NCBI GenBank assembly: GCA_021790305.1
Contig: JAJYED010000005.1
Location: 1-38,097, forward strand
DNA: 38,097 nucleotides
Origin: Microcaldota archaeon
GTDB lineage: Archaea > Micrarchaeota > Micrarchaeia > Micrarchaeales > CABMGC01
Direction: 5' to 3'
Position numbers and translations under genes: made by a program. The notes under the pieces are model-generated. The model was not told where the DNA came from. It saw nothing but the letters and a program-made list of their open reading frames with translations, and ran no database searches. Shown one piece after another: positions 3,372 to 38,097 of this stretch (its first letter is position 1; the number at the start of each line of letters is the position of its first letter).

Positions 3372-3983
3372 TTATACATACCTTCTTGCTGCGGATTTAA
3401 TAGTATTGATAAATGCCCTGGTCTTTGAGATAGGTTCTCTTTTTATTGCCGCTTCAAGATCCTCCCTTTTTGCAAGCGCTATGCTGATGTCATCAGGATG
3501 GAAGGGAGTAGTGCATACTATAAGACCTCTGTCAGGACTTGCGTCTATATATAAACTGCCAACCCCTCCGCATGCATGAAATGATCTCTCATGTGGTTCA
3601 AGCTCGTTGTAGAAAGTATACCTGTCTACCGGCCTGAATGTCCAGTTTACCTGTCTTTTCTTAGTAATATCCTCTCCGAGTATTTGAAAGTAGCCTTCGC
3701 TTTTTATACTCCTGCCTTGTATCGCAGTAACAGAGTGCTGGAAAAGATCCATTCTGAAATCGGGGTTGAGAAGGAAGGACATAGCGGCAAGCTTCATAGT
3801 CACATGCACATACCCTTCCGGTATCTCGAACTTTACAGGGGTCAGCCTTTGTGCCATAATCCTTTCGTATGAATCGCCTTCGAGGGCGTTGTCTCTTCTG
3901 AATCTCTTGAATGTTATCGGCACCTGTGATAAAGGATGCTGCGCTGCTTCTATTTGCTGCTCCATTCTTTGTATAGTCTGCAT
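3372..3983 (-). CDS. Hypothetical protein
   Basis: 203 aa ORF in a co-directional minus-strand run; family not recognised. Confidence 0.6.
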   Translation of the reverse strand: MQTIQRMEQQIEAAQHPLSQVPITFKRFRRDNALEGDSYERIMAQRLTPVKFEIPEGYVHVTMKLAAMSFLLNPDFRMDLFQHSVTAIQGRSIKSEGYFQILGEDITKKRQVNWTFRPVDRYTFYNELEPHERSFHACGGVGSLYIDASPDRGLIVCTTPFHPDDISIALAKREDLEAAIKREPISKTRAFINTIKSAARRYV

Positions 3984-4047
3984 ATCATCACTTTTTATTT
4001 TGAAATCAAAGCAAAATCATAGTGTTACTAATATATACTTAGAAATT

Positions 4048-4482
4048 CTAGTATAATGTTGGATTCCTCTTAAGAGAGATTAATAACTTCTCCTTTGCCT
4101 TATCCACATGGCCACATTCTGGATTGTATGATATTGAGTGCGCAGTTACTGAATATGAACGAATCTTGCATGTGTTTATATCGCGTGCACGCACACTGTT
4201 GGCAGATATGCTGCATGCTGAAACGTCAACTGCAGATATAGACCTGGCAGAGATATTTGCACCAGAATGCATGCTGCCTGTGACTGCTAGCTTGCTTACA
4301 TGTACATTCCCTGACACTCTTAGATTACCATTAACTTCTAAGTTGAATCTTGAACCACATGTGCCAGATATACTTCCTTCTACTACCACATTGCCCTGAT
4401 ACACTATGTCTTTTTCTAATACAAGATCGCCTTTTATTACAGTCTCTTGTACTTTCTTTTTGTCCGTGCCAATTATTTTCAT
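4048..4482 (-). CDS. Bactofilin/beta-solenoid-like protein
   Basis: VIKGDLVLEKDIVYQGNVVVEGSISG and repeated SISANSVRARDI-type short repeats; paralogous to the next gene. Confidence 0.6.
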   Translation of the reverse strand: MKIIGTDKKKVQETVIKGDLVLEKDIVYQGNVVVEGSISGTCGSRFNLEVNGNLRVSGNVHVSKLAVTGSMHSGANISARSISAVDVSACSISANSVRARDINTCKIRSYSVTAHSISYNPECGHVDKAKEKLLISLKRNPTLY

Positions 4483-7329: not shown

Positions 7330-8157
7330 ATGGCCAGCGTGATTAATGTCTTCAAAGAGAGCATAGATATTGCAAAGAAAAACTATCTGAAGCTCCTTGG
7401 ACTGTACCTGATTATTCTCATTATATTCACAGTACTGGAGGCTCTTGCTGTTCTTCTTACAGCAGGTGCCGCTCTCGGTGCAGTCTCTGGCATAAGCTCG
7501 CCTCTGACGTTTATCCCGTTGGTTCTTATTGTATTTATTGCAGCGATTCTGATAAGTCCAATATGGAATGGGATATATTATTCGCTTGCAATACAGGGAA
7601 TGAAAAAGAGCAGTAAGACAACCCTTGACAAGGCATTCGGAGATTCCAAAAAAGTTTATAGAAAAATGCTATGGACGTCAGTTATACAAACAGTAATAAT
7701 GGTAATAATATTGGGAATAATATTAACACCGGATATTCTTTATATACTATCGATCAGATCAGGCTCCAGTGCATTTTCGCATCCGTTGCTTTTTCTATCG
7801 ACTCTAGGCATAACAGCGCTCGTGTTTATCGTGGTTGCTTTCATATTGGGAGCTCTTTTCTTTGTCGCAGTGCCTCTCGCAATGCTTGACGGAAGCAGCG
7901 GAATTGGTGCCATAAGAAAAAGCTTCACGGTTGCAAGGAAGTATTTCTGGAGCGTAATGGGTTTGTTGATACTTTCAGGGATAGCATATGCAATCGTGTA
8001 TGCAATAACTGAGATCTTTACCTTAGGATTCTCTGTGGTAAATCCGACATTAGGGGAGGTGGTCTCACTCGTACTTACAGTACTTCTAGAATCTTTTATA
8101 GTCGGCATAGTGGGCTTTCTGCCCGTAATCTTCTACAAAAGATTTGTAAAATCCTGA
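7330..8157 (+). CDS. Polytopic membrane protein (DUF4013/GlpQ-membrane-domain-like)
   Basis: Multiple TM helices, 275 aa; upstream TTTTAAATG TATA-like sequence. Confidence 0.6.
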   Translation: MASVINVFKESIDIAKKNYLKLLGLYLIILIIFTVLEALAVLLTAGAALGAVSGISSPLTFIPLVLIVFIAAILISPIWNGIYYSLAIQGMKKSSKTTLDKAFGDSKKVYRKMLWTSVIQTVIMVIILGIILTPDILYILSIRSGSSAFSHPLLFLSTLGITALVFIVVAFILGALFFVAVPLAMLDGSSGIGAIRKSFTVARKYFWSVMGLLILSGIAYAIVYAITEIFTLGFSVVNPTLGEVVSLVLTVLLESFIVGIVGFLPVIFYKRFVKS

Positions 8158-8159
8158 GG

Positions 8160-8480
8160 TTATCTGTTATCTCCGCTGCCGGCTATCTTTCCCCTCTCCT
8201 GCCTGCTCTTCAGTTTCTCCAGATTGTGCAGTGCGACATCCTCAAAGTCTATGCCAAGCTCTGTTGAGAGTTGTGCGAGGTACCAGAGTATGTCTCCTAT
8301 CTCGCCTTTAAGGTCATCCCTGTCTATCTCCCTGTTGTCCCTCGCAATCTTCTTTATCTTGTTGAGGAGCTCTCCCACCTCCCCTGCCAGTCCTATTGAG
8401 GGGTAGAAGAATGCACCGTCAAGGTTCTTAGGATAAACTGCTGTTTTGTTGGCTTCGCGTTGATACTCTTCGAAATCCAT
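8160..8480 (-). CDS. MazG-type nucleotide pyrophosphohydrolase
   Basis: GLAGEVGELLNKIKK...LKGEIGDILWYLAQLSTELG, matching the MazG ExxE...ExxD pattern. Confidence 0.85.
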   Translation of the reverse strand: MDFEEYQREANKTAVYPKNLDGAFFYPSIGLAGEVGELLNKIKKIARDNREIDRDDLKGEIGDILWYLAQLSTELGIDFEDVALHNLEKLKSRQERGKIAGSGDNR

Positions 8481-8553
8481 TTGACCACTATCTTGCTTTT
8501 TGAGGAGAGATATTTATAAATATGCATAAAGAATATTTAGTGTCGAATTTTAG

Positions 8554-10539
8554 ATGATTCTTATGAAAAAGTTCAAGAGCACCGATGAGATAAAGATTCC
8601 CGACAAGCTCATAGACCAGATAATAGGACAGGAAAAGGCCACGGAGATAATAAAAAAGGCCGCAAAGCAGCACAGGAATGTGCTTCTGATAGGCTCTCCT
8701 GGAACAGGTAAGACGCTTCTTGCACAGGCCATGGCAGAGCTCCTCCCTGCAGCTGACCTTGAGGACGTGCTCGCATACAAGAACGTAAATGATGATAACA
8801 AGCCTTTGATAAAAGTAGTGAAGACGTACCCTAATGCAAAGGAGGCTCTTGCAAGCGGAAAGCCCCTCGGGGACGGGCAGGGCAGGCAGATAGTGCAGAA
8901 GGAGAAGATGGCAGGCAAGGTTGACATGGGCAAGCAGAGGAACTGGATAGTACCAATACTTATAGTACTGGTAGTCGTTGCGATAATAGCGACCTTCCTG
9001 AATATACTCAGCAACTCACAGATAATATTTCTGGGGGCGATAATGCTCGGAGTGCTGGTATTCGGAGCGGCTGCGCTCTTCGTAGGCACATTCAGACGCG
9101 CAGGGGCAGGCGTGCTTCCAGGAATGTTCGATACCAATGAACCCAAGCTTATAGTCGATAATACGGGGCTCGTACATGCTCCGTTCATAGAGGCTACAGG
9201 AGCAAAGGCAGGGGCACTCTTCGGAGATGTCAAGCATGACCCGCTTCAATCAGGTGGCCTTGGAACTCCTCCACACATGAGAGTTGACAGCGGTGCTGTT
9301 CACAAAGCAAGCAAGGGAGTTCTCTTCATAGATGAAGTATCAAATCTGGAAGCGAAGAGCCAGCAGGAGCTTCTTACAGCTATGCAGGAGAAGAAATACT
9401 CAATAACAGGACAGAGTGAGCTAAGTTCAGGTGCGATGGTAAGGACTGAACCTGTGCCATGCGATTTCCTCCTCGTAGCGGCAGGAAACCTCCAGGATGT
9501 TCCAAAAATGCACCCTGCTCTCAGATCAAGAATACGCGGTTATGGATATGAAGTATACATGGAAGATACGATGCCCGATACAGAAAAGAACAGGGATGAG
9601 CTTGTAAGGTTCATAGCGCAGGAGATAAAGAAGGATGGAAAGATACCTCCTTTCAGCTACGGAGCATGCATGGCGATAATAGATGAGGCGAAGAGGAGGA
9701 GCGGCAGGAAGAACAGGCTCACTCTCATACTCAGGGACCTCGGTGGCATAATAAGAGCTGCTGGGGACATAGCCAGGGATAAGGGCAGGAAGATTGTCAC
9801 TGAAGAAGACGTCATGGATAGCTTCAAGGTCACAAAACCTCTCGAAGCTCAGTTTGTAGAGCAATCCCTTGAATACAGAAAGGATTATCAGATATTCAGG
9901 AGCACCGGGTATGCTATCGGTAGAGTTAATGGCCTTGCAATAGTGGGATCATCATATCTCTCTTCAGGAATTGTTCTTCCGATAGTTGCAGAGGTAACAA
10001 AGGCAAGTTCAAGGACTGAAGGTAAGTTGATACCTACAGGTAAGCTAGGTACAATAGCTAGAGAAGCTGTCAAGAACACAGGCGCACTCATAAAGAGACA
10101 CATGAACAGAGATATGGCAAGCTATGATATTCACGTACAGTTCGTGCAGACATACGAGGGAGTTGAGGGTGACAGTGCGAGCATATCGATAGCCGTAGCG
10201 GTCATCTCCGCATTGGAGGGCATACCGGTATCCCAGGAGATTGCGATGACCGGATCCTTGTCAGTAAGAGGAGATGTCCTTCCTGTGGGAGGGATATCGA
10301 ACAAGGTAAGCGCTGCAATAAATGCAGGGATGAAATGTGTCCTTATACCGCATAACAATGCCGGTGACGTTAATATAGATAAGAAGAGTCTCAGTAAGAT
10401 AAAGATAATACCTGTAAAGAATATTGCAGACGTCCTCCAGTATGCGCTTAAGAAGAGCAAGCGCAGAGACGAGATGATAAGCAAGCTCAGGAAGTACATA
10501 GAGACGGACAAGCTGGAGAGAGAACCGCTGGAAGTGTGA
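8554..10539 (+). CDS. lonB: Archaeal Lon protease (LonB)
   Basis: Walker A GSPGTGKT; two TM helices inserted in the AAA domain; catalytic Ser EGDSAS and Lys SNKVSAA. Confidence 0.95.
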
Positions 10540-31014: not shown

Positions 31015-31209
31015 GTGATGATTATCGGCATTCAGCAGCAACAAAGCACTTCACAAATGCACATTATGGAGCTTGAGAAAGGACATATACTTGTAATAGA
31101 TTACAACAGGCACCATATAACTTATAACTACATATTTCTAGCTAATCTTAGTGCAGGTATGGATTATGTTAGGTGGAAATGGCGATTAGTAGAAGTGCTG
31201 TCTAATTAA
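31015..31209 (+). pseudogene. Small ORF or gene remnant containing the repeat also found at 36718
   Basis: C-terminal LSAGMDYVRWKW matches the interrupted frame VSAGVSYVRWN* at 36718. Confidence 0.3.
31150..31182 (+). repeat. Direct repeat copy 1, left edge of the accessory island
   Basis: AGTGCAGGTATGGATTATGTTAGGTGGAAATGG; about 26/33 identical by eye to 36718..36750. Confidence 0.6.
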
Positions 31210-32797
31210 TGGCAGATATCAGTGCCTTTTTCGTGGTTCTATTAGTTATTGATATCTGTAGGCGATTTATCCTGATGCTTAACATATCTCCATGATGGAA
31301 GATATTTGTAGCGTCTTTTATCCCTGCAATGAACGGGATATCGAATTCCTTTGCAATGATTGCTGCATGGCTCAGTATTCCTCCTTCTTCTGATATTATG
31401 CACTTGACATTTTTTAATCTTAGAACTGCTTCCGGGGTCACATCCTTATAAATAACGATGTCCTTGCCAACCTCACCTTTTATAGATGGCGGCAATTTAT
31501 AAATCGGTCGCGAAACGTCATAACTTCTGTTTAACTTAGGAAGCGTAAACCCGTGTTGTGCTAATATCCAAGTATAATCCGTTATATTTTTCTTCGGCTT
31601 TTCTGGGATTTTGTCATATGCTGCTTTTATCACTGGGGATATGTAATAATCATGATATACTACGCCGTAGCATTTGATATCGTATAGAAGCGAAAAGAAA
31701 TCTGCAACTCTTTTCTCACGAATTGAGAAGTTATAATTCCTTGGTTTTATCTTTCTCTTTTTTATATCATATTTGGTTATATCTTCGACAAATGTTTCTT
31801 CATATCTTTCAGGATTTGCCAATATTTTTGAGTATAAAGAGGTTTTTCTGTTTATAGCATATGCTAACAAAATGTCATTATCCAGCCCAAGCCGTTTTGC
31901 AGATAATAGCACTCTCTTCATGGCAAGAGAATTGTCTTCTGTAATTTGATTGAGAAAACCGTAATAGCCATAATTTATTATAGCGTCCTTGAACCTTTCT
32001 GCTGGTTTCATGCCTTTAGGTTTTCTGTAAGATTTTCTGATTATCGCTTCCCAGTCAAAAATCTCCAACCTTAATACTCTCTGCGCAAGCCAATATGCAG
32101 TTTTCCTGAATTCCTCACTGTACTTGAATGAGAATGCTAGATATCTGTCCCATTTAGAAGTAGGCGTCATTGATAGAAATTCGTTTATATTTTCAAGCTG
32201 CCTTTTGCCTATTTGCTTTGCGTCTCTTGCCTGAAGTATATATATCTTGTCATTTTTTAGCCATTCGATATCTTGCGGTTTCTTAAAAATTGCTTCTATG
32301 TCCAGTGCATCTGCTATTAATTCTGTTATATGAGATGGGATGCGCTTTGTATTGAGTGAAAACCTTGATATTTTGTAGGTTGAGTCCACCTCTTTTCCGG
32401 AAGTAACTTTAGCTGCATTCTTTCCTGACTCAACTGTTATTGTTGAATTATAGTCTGTAAAACATACTCCTCCGCATTTAGCAGGCACGTATTGCTGTAT
32501 TATAGCTCCTGGTTTTAGTTTGTTATTTAATCCTGACTTCTTGCCATATGTGGTAGCAGCGGATGTGCCGCTGAGGACCTTTTTTAGGTATAGTCTGATT
32601 TCATCTTCTTGCAGCGGGCCGTAAGATCTGAAGATACCTGCAAAAGACTTATCAGAATCTTCCAAGTTAAAAGAGCTCCTTACTATATATTTATCTGCCT
32701 TGAATGTAAGGTTATAGTCCAGATCCTTTGTAGATATAAATTCGGGTATGTTGAAACCGTTCTGTTTTAGGATGTACAGCTTACTGGCTTTACTCAT
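31202..32797 (-). CDS. PEP-synthase/rifampin-phosphotransferase-like dikinase (ATP-grasp + unknown middle + swivelling His domain)
   Basis: IVRSSFNLEDSDKSFAGIF; IIQQYVPAKCGGVCFTDY; DIEWLKNDKIYILQAR; C-terminal EEGGILSHAAIIAKEFDIPFIAG. No PEP-binding TIM barrel seen. Confidence 0.8.
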   Translation of the reverse strand: MSKASKLYILKQNGFNIPEFISTKDLDYNLTFKADKYIVRSSFNLEDSDKSFAGIFRSYGPLQEDEIRLYLKKVLSGTSAATTYGKKSGLNNKLKPGAIIQQYVPAKCGGVCFTDYNSTITVESGKNAAKVTSGKEVDSTYKISRFSLNTKRIPSHITELIADALDIEAIFKKPQDIEWLKNDKIYILQARDAKQIGKRQLENINEFLSMTPTSKWDRYLAFSFKYSEEFRKTAYWLAQRVLRLEIFDWEAIIRKSYRKPKGMKPAERFKDAIINYGYYGFLNQITEDNSLAMKRVLLSAKRLGLDNDILLAYAINRKTSLYSKILANPERYEETFVEDITKYDIKKRKIKPRNYNFSIREKRVADFFSLLYDIKCYGVVYHDYYISPVIKAAYDKIPEKPKKNITDYTWILAQHGFTLPKLNRSYDVSRPIYKLPPSIKGEVGKDIVIYKDVTPEAVLRLKNVKCIISEEGGILSHAAIIAKEFDIPFIAGIKDATNIFHHGDMLSIRINRLQISITNRTTKKALISAIN

Positions 32798-32868: not shown

Positions 32869-33441
32869 TTATAATCCTATTTTTGATTTCAGAGCTTCTA
32901 ATTTTTGCTTGTTGTTCAGTAGTGAGTATCCAAAACTGCCGAATCGTTCAATATTGCTGCTTATATTTTCTATAAACTGTTCAAAAGTAACTTCTATTGT
33001 TTCTATCTTTTCGCCATTGTCTAATCTTGGTTCTGCAACTTTTACGCAGTTTCTTGCTATAAACAAGTATATGTAGAACTCTATCCTAGGATAATTCAAA
33101 ACGTCAATGACTTCGATCTGCTCCCAGTTGTTCGATTCTAACCCTGCTTCTTCCAGCAGCTCTCTTTTGCCTGTTTCGATAGGTTCTTCGTTATCATCCA
33201 TCTGTCCTCCTATCAGAGTATAATAGGGTTTTTTGCTATCAGGCCGCTCTTCCTTTGTCATTATGATTTTGTTTCCTGATAACGCCATTACTTTTACCCC
33301 GTTTCTTCTGCTCTTCAGACCTTCGAATATGGCTGTTGAGCCGTCGAACATCTTCTGAGGCCATTGATAAACATCCCATAATTCGCCCCTGAACGCAAGT
33401 TTTGCGTTTTGAGGAAGTTTTGATTGCCCCATGGTAATCAA
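32869..33441 (-). CDS. NUDIX hydrolase
   Basis: Nudix box GGQMDDNEEPIETGKRELLEEAGL. Confidence 0.9.
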   Translation of the reverse strand: MITMGQSKLPQNAKLAFRGELWDVYQWPQKMFDGSTAIFEGLKSRRNGVKVMALSGNKIIMTKEERPDSKKPYYTLIGGQMDDNEEPIETGKRELLEEAGLESNNWEQIEVIDVLNYPRIEFYIYLFIARNCVKVAEPRLDNGEKIETIEVTFEQFIENISSNIERFGSFGYSLLNNKQKLEALKSKIGL

Positions 33442-33649: not shown

Positions 33650-34627
33650 ATGGTAAAGTCATATCCGTTAGACAAGTTTCCTGAGACAGTGCTTAGACCA
33701 AATGTAGTAGCTAACCATGATGAACATCTTAAATTCCTATTAAACGATATAAAACAGTATGAGAATGTATGTGGTTATAGGGATCAGGTCCTATTCGACT
33801 GGTTGCTAAGAGTGTTTGAGAATCTTGGTATATCTACGGTCAATGCGCAGTATCTTGATTCGCTTGCAGTAACCAAAACGAAGATGGCCATGTTTGTCAT
33901 ACTGGTGGATGATACTGTTGACAATATTAAAAAGAGAGATCTTAGCCTATGTGAAAAACTACTGAAGATTCCATTCGAAGAAGCTAATAATAAAGAATAC
34001 GGCCATAAAGATAGCCAGTCAGCCTATCTAGATTTCGCAAGGGATTTATGGCTGGAAATAGCTGACGAGATTAAATCATACCCTTATTATGCAGAATACC
34101 GGGATGCGTTTGAGTTTGATGTTAGACAGTTTCTCAACTCGATGAGGTACAGTGAGTTTGTAAACAAGCACAACAACGCTGCGAACCTTATTGAAAATGA
34201 TGCTTATGTGCATCATGGCATGATGGTAATTATACAACTGGATATGGACTTAATGTGCTCGGAAAAGTTTGACAGCAAAGAATTTGGGGCTCTCAGAGAA
34301 CTTGCATATCTTTCCCAAAAACTGGCCAGAATAGGTAATCTTATAAGTACATATCCCAGAGAGATTATAGAATCAGATATGTCAAGTGAAGCGCTCATTA
34401 AATTCAGGAAGGAATATGGAGAAGATTTTAAGTTTAAGTTAAATAAGCTGTTCAACAGGGAGAAAAGGTATCCTGAATTCGAAGAGAAAATGATACGCGA
34501 ATGGGAGAACAAATATACTATAATCAAGGAACTCGCAACTGGTATTAAATCTATAGATGGCAATAAGTTCATCCAGTCGCTTGAATTTTTCCAGAAAGCT
34601 TACCAGACAAAGATAAATGATTGGTAA
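33650..34627 (+). CDS. Divergent class I terpene-synthase-like protein
   Basis: Asp-rich motif LVDDTVDN (residues 87-91) and NSE-like NLISTYPRE (230-238), all-helical 325 aa. Confidence 0.55.
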   Translation: MVKSYPLDKFPETVLRPNVVANHDEHLKFLLNDIKQYENVCGYRDQVLFDWLLRVFENLGISTVNAQYLDSLAVTKTKMAMFVILVDDTVDNIKKRDLSLCEKLLKIPFEEANNKEYGHKDSQSAYLDFARDLWLEIADEIKSYPYYAEYRDAFEFDVRQFLNSMRYSEFVNKHNNAANLIENDAYVHHGMMVIIQLDMDLMCSEKFDSKEFGALRELAYLSQKLARIGNLISTYPREIIESDMSSEALIKFRKEYGEDFKFKLNKLFNREKRYPEFEEKMIREWENKYTIIKELATGIKSIDGNKFIQSLEFFQKAYQTKINDW

Positions 34628-34629
34628 TC

Positions 34630-35175
34630 TTAGATCTGCATTTCGCAGAGTTCCCTGAATTCATTAACTAGCTTTTCTTTAGAGTCTAGGATAAAACGAC
34701 AATTTTCCCTGCCCGATACTGCACAATCTGTTTCAAGAGCATGAAGTTCCTGTCCAGTAGCGATAGATGCTATGCCTGCCAATGCGCCTCGTACTATGTG
34801 ATCCACAGGTGCAGAAGACTTTCCTTTCAGGATCTTGACAAATGGAGAACATTCAAGAATCATGGTCCTATTCTGACTCGACAAAGGTTTTTCATAGCGC
34901 ATCTTGCCGAATCCATATAAATTGATACTGTCGCATATCCACCCCGAAGGATCATTATCTTTTGATTCAGCATTTAGTTTATTGCGTTGTTCCAGCATAG
35001 AATTCCGCATAGTAGAATATAGTATCTTCGTAGTTGACTTATCGCTTGCTATCTTACTGGCATACATTATGAATCCTTCCAATGGCAGTATAGCAACACT
35101 CTCACCGTATAATGTAATAGAGCCGTCTTCGAATTTCATCTTTCGGCTCATCAGAAGCGCGTCCAGCAGATTCAT
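34630..35175 (-). CDS. V4R-like domain protein
   Basis: Parallels the neighbouring gene: GALAGIASIATGQELHALETDCAVSGRENCRFIL. Confidence 0.6.
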   Translation of the reverse strand: MNLLDALLMSRKMKFEDGSITLYGESVAILPLEGFIMYASKIASDKSTTKILYSTMRNSMLEQRNKLNAESKDNDPSGWICDSINLYGFGKMRYEKPLSSQNRTMILECSPFVKILKGKSSAPVDHIVRGALAGIASIATGQELHALETDCAVSGRENCRFILDSKEKLVNEFRELCEMQI

Positions 35176-35723
35176 TGTGTTTCACCAAAGAGTTTTTCAT
35201 AACGATCAGGAAACTTTTCCTTCAGGTATTCTTTAGGTCCCCAGTAGTAGACACAGATGTCTCTGCCTGAGCATATGCACTCAGTCTCTATCACATCTAT
35301 GTCAGTCTTGAAAGTGCCGCTTGCGGAACCTGCAATGAATCCTTCAAATAATGGATCTGAAGGTACCTTGACACCCTTATCTCTCAGATATTTATGAAGT
35401 GGAAGTTCAGCTATAGATAATATGCCACAGTTCCCCTCTTCCACTATCTTGTAGGATACAGTTCCCCAGCCTGCAAAGCCGCAGTATTTTATCCAGCGGT
35501 CTAAGAATATTCGGGAGGTCAGTTGATATTCTTCTCCAAGCGAAACTGAGAATTCGATCATGCCTTTCTTAACCGATTCATATAGTCGCCTTCCCTCGTT
35601 CAGATCGCCTTTTATATTAATAATGTAATCCCCAAGGAAACTTATGGGAAATATGGCCACTGGCTGCTTATTCAGAGTTATCGCACCTTCTTCTATTGCG
35701 ACCTGCTTTGAAACTGAAAACAA
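35172..35723 (-). CDS. V4R-like domain protein (paralogue)
   Basis: GFIAGSASGTFKTDIDVIETECICSGRDICVYYW resembles the V4R C-terminal core. Confidence 0.65.
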   Translation of the reverse strand: MFSVSKQVAIEEGAITLNKQPVAIFPISFLGDYIINIKGDLNEGRRLYESVKKGMIEFSVSLGEEYQLTSRIFLDRWIKYCGFAGWGTVSYKIVEEGNCGILSIAELPLHKYLRDKGVKVPSDPLFEGFIAGSASGTFKTDIDVIETECICSGRDICVYYWGPKEYLKEKFPDRYEKLFGETQ

Positions 35724-35749
35724 TTCAAAGAGATTTATCTAACCACCTT

Positions 35750-36538
35750 TCAAGTGGTGCTTTTCTGGTATACCTTCTCAGCAGGTCTCACCAGGCATCC
35801 GCTCTTTCCAAGCTCTAGGTCATGGATATACTGGCTGTGATCCGTATCCCTCATCTTAAGTATGCTTATAGTCCTCATGCGCTTGGACCCTAGAAGTTCG
35901 TTGTAGAAAGTTAACACACAGTCGCATGCAAACTCGCTTACCCCGTCCACTGTAAGCTGGTCTCCTGCCTGTTTTGCAGCTGTAATTATCAGGTTTGTCG
36001 TACCTTGCTTGGAAAGCTCGTTTATGAGAAGGTATGTTGCTCTCTGGTCAGACCTCCCGGTATATAATATCTTGTGGTCTGTTGGACGGTTCTTGTAAGC
36101 AGAATCAATGTCAGATAGATTAAAACCGAGCGGTATTATAAATTGGTCTAGATTTACCGCAAAAGTTACCAGACTGTCAAAGACTAACCTTTTGGCTCCA
36201 ACTTCTTTTACAGCTGTATCTATCATTTCAAAAATATTGATGCCTGCCAGATCAAGTGCAACTTCGACTATCTTAATCTTCTTGTTCTCTTCCAGCGATT
36301 CAAGATCCCATCCGAACTTCCTTGCCTGATCAAGAAGATCCTGTCTTTTCTGATCCAAAGTCACATATACTCCGCATTCGCCATTCTTTGCACCGCTGTA
36401 AAGATATTGCAACGCGAAGATTGTCTTGCCTGTGCCAGGAATACCGGTTAGAAGAACATTGGATCTTTGAGGCAGTCCCCCTTCTACCAACTCATCGAAT
36501 CCTGGAACTCCTGTCTTGACTCTTGCCCCTACATCCAT
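35750..36538 (-). CDS. KaiC/RadA-like single-domain ATPase
   Basis: TGVPGFDELVEGGLPQRSNVLLTGIPGTGKTIFALQYLY; Walker B-like RLVFDSLVTF. Confidence 0.88.
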   Translation of the reverse strand: MDVGARVKTGVPGFDELVEGGLPQRSNVLLTGIPGTGKTIFALQYLYSGAKNGECGVYVTLDQKRQDLLDQARKFGWDLESLEENKKIKIVEVALDLAGINIFEMIDTAVKEVGAKRLVFDSLVTFAVNLDQFIIPLGFNLSDIDSAYKNRPTDHKILYTGRSDQRATYLLINELSKQGTTNLIITAAKQAGDQLTVDGVSEFACDCVLTFYNELLGSKRMRTISILKMRDTDHSQYIHDLELGKSGCLVRPAEKVYQKSTT

Positions 36539-36791: not shown

Positions 36792-38097
36792 TTATTTTGG
36801 TTCTTGATTATTGGGAATATAGAAGTCTATGGCTTCTTGTTTTATCCCATGTAAGATCTTATATTGTGTGCTTTCTTTGTTATCTAATCTTCTAAATCCC
36901 AGCTTACCTATAAGTAGTTGGATTATAATCATAGTATGTAATTCAACTCCGCTTCCGAAGAAGCTACGGAAACTATTCTCTGTCTTTTGTAGGTCCGAAC
37001 TTTCAAAGACTGGAAGTATAGAGAACATCCCATATGGGGCGCCCATATCCCCTAGCAGTATAAATCTGTTAGTAAGGTAGGCTGTATTCTCAATAATATA
37101 TCTGCGATAATTTACTTTTCCTTTATCAAACTTAGATATGTTTGTCTGGTTGGATATCAATAATGCAGTGTACTTCAATGGCAACGAATCCATCGTAATG
37201 GTTATTCTTCGTATTATCTTCTTCTCTAGGAGTTTATGATAAGTATAATGTGCAGCACCTGAGTGCATCTGGTATTTTTTATCTATCTCGTTAAAGTCAA
37301 TTCTACCATTTTTATTAAGTTCGTATAAAACATTGAATTCTCTTTCTAATAACATATTCACCGGTTTTCTTGGCAGTTCCTTTGTCTTATGCCATATCTT
37401 ATCCTTAATAATATCAAAGAATCTGTCTCTGAATGGAATAAAGCCATATGAGGATGTGATATAACTCACTATCCAGTCTGCATCCTGGTCTGAGAATACC
37501 TTATTCTGCCTAATCTCATAAATTACGTCCTCAAGATATGCTGTGTTGTTGGCCAATAGGTATATTAAAATGTCATATTCTCCTTTAAGCAATGCGACAG
37601 TTTGTATTAACGGATATCTATTAAGAACTTCTTTTATCTTTTCTACATCGGGAACCCCGTTTCTGAATTTTACCAGTATATAGAACCTGAACAGTCCAAA
37701 TGGCCTTGGAGCAAAATCAAGAGTGTATTTTATCTTATAAAGAGATTCCAGTCTGTGTAATCTTCGCTGAGCTTTACTCCTACTTACATTTGCATATTTG
37801 CTTATCTCAGAAATTGTTGCTCTGCCATCAGTGCTTATCTTTTCCAGTATCTTTCTGTCAATCTCATCTGGATATATCAATGATTCCAGATTTCCGGTAT
37901 CATTATGCCTGCCGCGCTTCAGCATAAGTTCATCTAAAGAACTGGCATCAGATCTTGAGCTTACCCTGTATCTTGCCTTAGTAAACTTTCCGTCAGCATC
38001 CATCTTGCCAAGATAAAGCGCTACAGACTTCCATTTGGATCTTCCTTTATCATACATATTTGAGCATTCGTATACATAATATCTGCCTTTTAAGATC
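36792..38097 (-). CDS. Lrp/AsnC-type HTH protein with extra N- and C-terminal regions; 5' end beyond the window
   Basis: IDRKILEKISTDGRATISEISKYANVSRSKAQRRLHRLESLYKI plus a second HTH-like region; frame open to the edge (DLKGRYYVYECSNMYDKGRSKWKSVALYLGKMD). Confidence 0.65.
   Translation of the reverse strand, partial: ILKGRYYVYECSNMYDKGRSKWKSVALYLGKMDADGKFTKARYRVSSRSDASSLDELMLKRGRHNDTGNLESLIYPDEIDRKILEKISTDGRATISEISKYANVSRSKAQRRLHRLESLYKIKYTLDFAPRPFGLFRFYILVKFRNGVPDVEKIKEVLNRYPLIQTVALLKGEYDILIYLLANNTAYLEDVIYEIRQNKVFSDQDADWIVSYITSSYGFIPFRDRFFDIIKDKIWHKTKELPRKPVNMLLEREFNVLYELNKNGRIDFNEIDKKYQMHSGAAHYTYHKLLEKKIIRRITITMDSLPLKYTALLISNQTNISKFDKGKVNYRRYIIENTAYLTNRFILLGDMGAPYGMFSILPVFESSDLQKTENSFRSFFGSGVELHTMIIIQLLIGKLGFRRLDNKESTQYKILHGIKQEAIDFYIPNNQEPK

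Follow-up and report, generated by a model that had tools for sequence, protein, structure and literature searches.

Closest described systems

The DDxxD/E motif and the NSE/DTE triad of class I terpene synthases have been described previously (PMC10563020). The family reported here resembles the bacterial class I terpene synthases (PF19086; T-muurolol synthase, Roseiflexus castenholzii, PDB 9hr0) in its predicted alpha fold, its DDxx(D/E) motif, and its N-x3-(S/T)-x3-E triad, which is followed by an acidic residue at position 14 (the GD of the canonical NDxxSxxKExxxGD). It differs from them in having W, L, or V rather than D at NSE position 2, in lacking the usual pyrophosphate-sensor Arg and the C-terminal RY of the canonical bacterial enzymes, in sharing ~12–14% identity with them over the structural alignment, and in being sensor-linked or joined in one protein with DXS, a receiver domain, or a methyltransferase. 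The best profile alignment in the PDB was to the plant enzyme TPS18 (PDB 7bzb), with the NSE helix and DDxxD in register and an Arg at N-3 common to both, but the match is not significant by sequence (E = 0.42–1.8) and the plant domain architecture differs.

The genes that accompany the family also have described counterparts. MopR, PoxR, and DmpR are NtrC-type activators that respond to phenol, and their sensor domains are V4R domains whose fold, as predicted, and conserved V4R Cys recur in the V4R protein adjacent to our gene; in the window, however, the V4R proteins are free-standing, arranged in tandem, and located beside a KaiC ATPase instead of being fused to an NtrC-type ATPase. The partner gene of bacterial relatives combines PF16927, HisKA, and HATPase_c, as known HisKA_7TM histidine kinases (PF16927) do, but unlike those it is coupled to a terpene synthase gene. 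In enzymatic-output response regulators such as REC-GGDEF, a receiver domain is followed by an enzyme-type domain. The same order is found in two fusions of this family (L045 and L069/L106), in which the output is instead a terpene synthase-like domain, and the function of these fusions is untested. In open-licence PubMed Central papers, the only literature covered, neither archaeal class I terpene synthases nor a terpene-like signal in archaea turned out to have been described.

From the observed fold, conserved metal ligands, distribution, fusions, and gene linkage, we infer catalysis on a prenyl diphosphate together with regulation or sensing by a partner. We consider it probable that the encoded protein is a class I terpenoid synthase with catalytic activity, belonging to a divergent and unannotated clade and working in a sensor-linked module, with the reservation that no member's activity has been shown.

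The gene and its contig

The window, meaning the whole 38,097-nucleotide stretch of Micrarchaeota contig that was analyzed, contains the gene under study as follows:

33650..34627 (stop codon included), + strand: divergent class I terpene synthase-like gene, 325 aa (evidence: ORF, fold, motif conservation, relatives)

The frame opens with ATG at 33650 and closes with TAA at 34625–34627, and the ORF is confirmed as a real gene. Its four closest full-length relatives, at 49–54% identity, come from genomes of the same family or order and correspond to Candidatus Micrarchaeota MAGs in a collection with named genomes. By inference from these relatives, the host is an archaeon of Micrarchaeota type. 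Searched alone against Pfam, NCBIfam, and PDB, the window protein had no match, and viral-contig and phage searches likewise returned none.

The contig comes from a metagenome bin with 81.9% completeness and an estimated contamination of 0.65%, and a misassembled or contaminating contig could in principle have placed a gene foreign to the archaeon here. We regard this as barely credible and rejected it: archaeal translation genes share the contig (aIF1A, aIF2-beta, and, like them 4–5 kb from the terpene synthase-like gene, RIO1 kinase), and other Micrarchaeota MAGs hold close relatives with the same neighbours.

Elsewhere in the window, the protein encoded at positions 31202–32797 has PPDK_N and PEP-utiliser mobile domains but, at 531 aa, is far shorter than PEP synthase.

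Predicted fold and relationship to terpene synthases

The AlphaFold2 model of the window protein is all-alpha, with a pLDDT of 90.9 and a pTM of 0.91. In a Foldseek search of the PDB, the top 50 matches were class I terpene synthases, save for one farnesyl diphosphate synthase of the same superfamily, and the best match was T-muurolol synthase (E = 4.2e-4, probability 1.00, TMq 0.63). DDTVD lies at the end of helix 66–91 and the NSE block within helix 209–240 of the model, which are the places of helices D and H in the class I terpene synthase fold; no inter-motif distance was derived from coordinates. The sequence-only reading had called the protein class I terpene-synthase-like and had named in advance two conditions that would refute it, a different predicted fold and motifs that are not co-located. 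The predicted fold passed the first of these, and the reading is supported by the fold, the Foldseek matches, and the helix placement of the motifs.

Sequence comparisons gave a weaker link. The HMM search against terpene synthase families that had been suggested as a check succeeded for relatives of the window protein and failed for the protein itself: PF19086 (Terpene_syn_C_2, terpene synthase C-terminal domain) matches 26 of 59 aligned members at E <= 0.01 (best 4.8e-8), while the window protein has no hit at the curated cut-off of this model, and a PF19086 search of its own genome matched the polyprenyl synthetase only. Profile-profile comparison with canonical Streptomyces clavuligerus enzymes placed the NSE block in register but was not significant (E = 0.095), and the family profile had no significant hit in the PDB. 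In the HMMER alignment, the NSE block of the family is in register with the plant NDxxTxxxE. Judged on sequence, this weak link to the canonical enzymes and the absence of the sensor Arg and C-terminal RY count against a synthase.

A prenyl chain-elongating enzyme or a squalene/phytoene-type synthase would share the superfamily fold, yet either is very improbable. The protein has a single DDxxD, and no second DD motif was found in its sequence, as the earlier reading had stated when it judged the protein less like a chain-elongating enzyme; PF00348 has no match, PF00494 matches one member weakly (0.036), and a separate polyprenyl synthetase is present both in the genome and in the bacterial operons. 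With one DDxxD and no PF00348 match, the chain-elongating enzyme was rejected.

Metal-ligand motifs and the inferred diphosphate site

The two motifs map to the gene as follows:

33908..33922, + strand: aspartate-rich motif DDTVD, residues 87–91; D87, D88, and D/E91 each 59/59 in the alignment
34337..34363, + strand: NSE-type motif NLISTYPRE, residues 230–238; metal-ligand positions N230, T234, and E238, then D243 at NSE position 14

Both had been picked out from the letters alone, and both are present as described: residues 84–93 of the window protein read ILVDDTVDNI and residues 229–243 read GNLISTYPREIIESD. Across the 59 aligned relatives, D87 and D88 never change, position 91 holds D in 29 rows and E in 30, and N230, T234, and E238 are likewise invariant. 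The invariance of the latter three is biased, because the pattern used to collect relatives by scanning, GN[WLV][LIV][TGS]T[WY][EP]RE, includes the N-to-E block. An HMM search run without the pattern gave 17 hits, of which 16 retain N-x3-S/T-x3-E, position 2 being W, L, V, or A and never D; the remaining hit is a degenerate paralogue. Given the conservation in the 59 relatives, both motifs are, as sequence evidence goes, far beyond chance.

NSE position 2 is W in 46 of the 59 rows, L in 11, and V in 2, and the canonical Asp is absent. Asp occupies this position in the canonical consensus, in which it is not a metal ligand and is not essential. The D-to-L change that had been noted is real, but since position 2 is not among the three metal ligands it need not disable the site, and the whole family does without Asp there.

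The pyrophosphate-sensor Arg was suspected to be missing from the region upstream of the NSE motif, where an HH pair (188–189) had been pointed out. In 14 canonical enzymes the sensor Arg lies 46 residues before the NSE motif, a feature typical of bacterial members although not definitive, and column 187 of the family, which aligns with this invariant Arg, is mostly D, G, L, or V. The suspicion is thus supported within the limits of a weak alignment (E = 0.095). The HH pair fared less well: H188 is not conserved, and of the 59 rows, 40 have H at position 189, 13 have Y, and 4 have F. R44, R216, and R237 are invariant, and position 227 (N-3) is R or K, making these four residues putative diphosphate ligands by inference from conservation. 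We suggest that basic residues other than the usual sensor Arg, possibly these, would hold the diphosphate.

The loss of the sensor Arg would also suit a protein that has lost catalysis and acts as a prenyl-diphosphate or pyrophosphate sensor subunit feeding the neighbouring kinase, Bat, or KaiC. The receiver-domain fusions, the tight coupling with kinases, and the long stem of the Micrarchaeota clade (1.7 changes per column) point the same way. We nevertheless find this unlikely, in that the metal ligands are all kept across archaea and bacteria, and that an enzyme better accounts for the fusions and operons with DXS, IPP isomerase, polyprenyl synthetase, and methyltransferase.

A second family copy adjacent to an intact one in the planctomycete G364 (L110, 4889–5956) has lost the NSE motif and is a degenerate paralogue.

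Distribution and phylogeny

Such enzymes had been called uncommon in archaea, which is wrong for this family: an HMM search found it in 47 of 151 Halobacteria genomes. Corresponding searches found it in 6 of 197 Micrarchaeota-phylum genomes, 4 of 290 Patescibacteria genomes, and 3 of 249 Planctomycetota genomes. Because each search was centred on a gene-holding genome, every tally is bound to contain one positive or more. "Unannotated in archaea" is a better description than "uncommon", as roughly one in three of the Halobacteria genomes sampled has the family, which is nevertheless unannotated, its members being labelled "hypothetical protein" in the plasmid records examined. If active, the family would constitute a further terpene synthase clade, one whose diphosphate-binding site is altered, and might be a source of terpenes in archaea.

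In the phylogenetic tree, the haloarchaeal rows group into a single clade (100/100), as do the Micrarchaeota-type rows and the Planctomycetota rows (100/100 each). The long-stemmed Micrarchaeota-type rows are placed among bacterial rows.

Several individual loci need separate comment. A Nitrosopumilaceae MAG (JASHNR) holds two genes 52–53% identical to the window protein (L016, L018); the contig of L018 carries tetrapyrrole-synthesis genes, identified by eye, so transfer rather than contamination is possible. The MAG of L022 is labelled Lysobacteraceae, but the genes next to the family gene, identified by eye as mraZ and rsmH, group with the neighbours seen in Patescibacteria loci, and this MAG is probably misbinned. 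Long frames in the haloarchaeal hits L104, L105, L107, and L108 were considered as fusions and rejected: their extra N-terminal stretches matched none of the local set of domain models and look like spurious early starts. The long C-terminal frame of L080 is probably a frameshift.

Isoprenoid-supply genes linked or fused to relatives

In three Planctomycetota MAGs, the terpene synthase-like domain forms the C-terminal third of a 915–936 aa protein, behind a complete DXS that scores 705–729 bits (cut-off 466). In G101, which is among these genomes, a housekeeping DXS is encoded separately, and the fused DXS therefore looks dedicated. Two more fusions carry a degenerate DXS (L065/L109 and L113). 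A polyprenyl synthetase is present in eight Patescibacteria-type loci (L022, L028, L036, L058, L076, L082, L089, and L125), of which L076 and L125 also have an IPP isomerase above cut-off. A SAM methyltransferase adjoins the family gene in L022, L024, and L112 and is fused to it in L111; NCBIfam methyltransferase models gave no match over cut-off for the methyltransferases of L022 and L024. The links to DXS, isomerase, and polyprenyl synthetase favour an enzyme over a dead sensor domain.

On the reading that the family is catalytic, the protein would bind a prenyl diphosphate through Mg2+, ionise it, and release a terpene hydrocarbon or alcohol. In the Micrarchaeota archaeon, the polyprenyl synthetase encoded in the same genome could provide the substrate, and in some lineages the accessory genes for MEP-pathway entry, isomerisation, chain elongation, and methyl transfer may supply or decorate the molecule.

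In Natrinema ejinorense (L074), a UbiA prenyltransferase and a cytochrome P450 flank the family gene (3376–4287 and 7874–9232), possibly as a terpenoid tailoring cluster in a haloarchaeon.

Sensor genes linked or fused to relatives

In all 12 bacterial loci, the family gene is followed on its own strand by a gene with a 7TM-kinase N-terminus, at a distance of −4 to +28 bp downstream of the stop codon. When six of these kinases were scanned with Pfam, HisKA_7TM was detected in five, and HisKA and HATPase_c in all six.

Across 59 haloarchaeal loci, genes of sensor and regulator classes (kinase, PAS, receiver, HalOD1, and Bat) cover 36% of the adjacent 500-bp bins, compared with 3–5% at 4–5.5 kb, and in 40 of the 59 such a gene lies within 800 bp of the family gene. 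No recognised sensor gene was found within this distance in the other 19, one of which (L061) has a Bat-type neighbour. Although the enrichment is clear, its control is rough, since HalOD1 genes are very common across haloarchaea (PMC5847659) and the HMMs used were built from the loci themselves. Direct fusions also occur, with a receiver domain (REC) in front of the terpene synthase-like domain in L045 and in L069/L106, the last two being the same gene, and in L087 a FIST protein overlaps the start of the family gene.

The neighbours of the gene in the window are:

32869..33441, − strand: Nudix hydrolase, divergent neighbour (PF00293, 9.6e-11; module membership not shown)
34630..35175, − strand: V4R-domain protein 2, convergent with the terpene synthase-like gene, 2 bp between stop codons (PF02830, 31.5 bits, cut-off 31)
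35172..35723, − strand: V4R-domain protein 1, tandem paralogue (PF02830, 6.8e-5, below cut-off; conserved E..C.......C)
35750..36538, − strand: KaiC-family ATPase (PF06745, 3.8e-52)
36792..38057, − strand: AsnC/Lrp-type HTH regulator (PF13404, 2.5e-11; module membership not shown)

The V4R-V4R-KaiC cluster (34630–36538) thus converges from the minus strand on the terpene synthase-like gene. The earlier reading had not picked up this sensor setting or the links to isoprenoid genes. The AlphaFold2 model of the V4R protein at 34630–35175 is of moderate confidence (pLDDT 67.6), and in the PDB Foldseek matches it best to the domains with which MopR, PoxR, and DmpR sense phenol (E about 1e-6, TM-scores about 0.45), which is consistent with its V4R hit in Pfam; the protein is predicted to have a hydrocarbon-sensor fold. 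KaiC and V4R partners accompany the gene in other Micrarchaeota as well, with KaiC not always in the same arrangement, and KaiC is linked to the gene in most relatives. KaiC-V4R modules without a terpene synthase-like gene are also found in Micrarchaeota, and because V4R and KaiC are not exclusive to the gene, this co-occurrence is weaker evidence than the bacterial operons.

We suggest that terpenoid production is tied to the sensor module, which would consist of KaiC and two V4R proteins in the window archaeon and elsewhere of histidine kinases (7TM or PAS), Bat regulators, or a fused response regulator. That the sensor detects the product itself, which would then act as a terpenoid signal within or between cells, is inferred from gene linkage only, and we offer the idea tentatively, with slightly less than even confidence. 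The broader hypothesis of a terpenoid signalling system common to archaea and bacteria, in which a small terpenoid is detected by a partner encoded beside the synthase (7TM/PAS kinase, Bat, FIST, or V4R), is put forward with the same reserve.

Alternatively, an active terpenoid synthase could make an ordinary lipid, pigment, or protective compound, with the sensors merely timing its production. Regulators often adjoin biosynthetic genes, and a few haloarchaeal loci do contain tailoring-type enzymes (the P450 and UbiA of L074 and an FAD oxidoreductase in L106) or, in L035, a geranylgeranyl-reductase-like gene. However, many loci consist of synthase and sensor alone without any tailoring gene, and the partner is usually a sensor whose type varies by lineage (7TM kinase, PAS kinase, Bat, V4R/KaiC, FIST, or REC fusion), a pattern that suits a shared ligand as well as regulation. 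An ordinary product is somewhat doubtful in our judgement, though a real possibility. If the product is instead the sensed ligand, a terpenoid signalling system would span archaea, Patescibacteria, and Planctomycetota, and this could be tested in cultured haloarchaea.

Two KaiC-V4R modules without a terpene synthase have isoprenoid-related neighbours. A polyprenyl (uppS-type) diphosphate synthase over cut-off lies beside one (L128, 4810–5523), and a mevalonate-kinase-like gene, below cut-off, and a FIST protein lie beside the other (L129, 1997–3160 and 174–1541).
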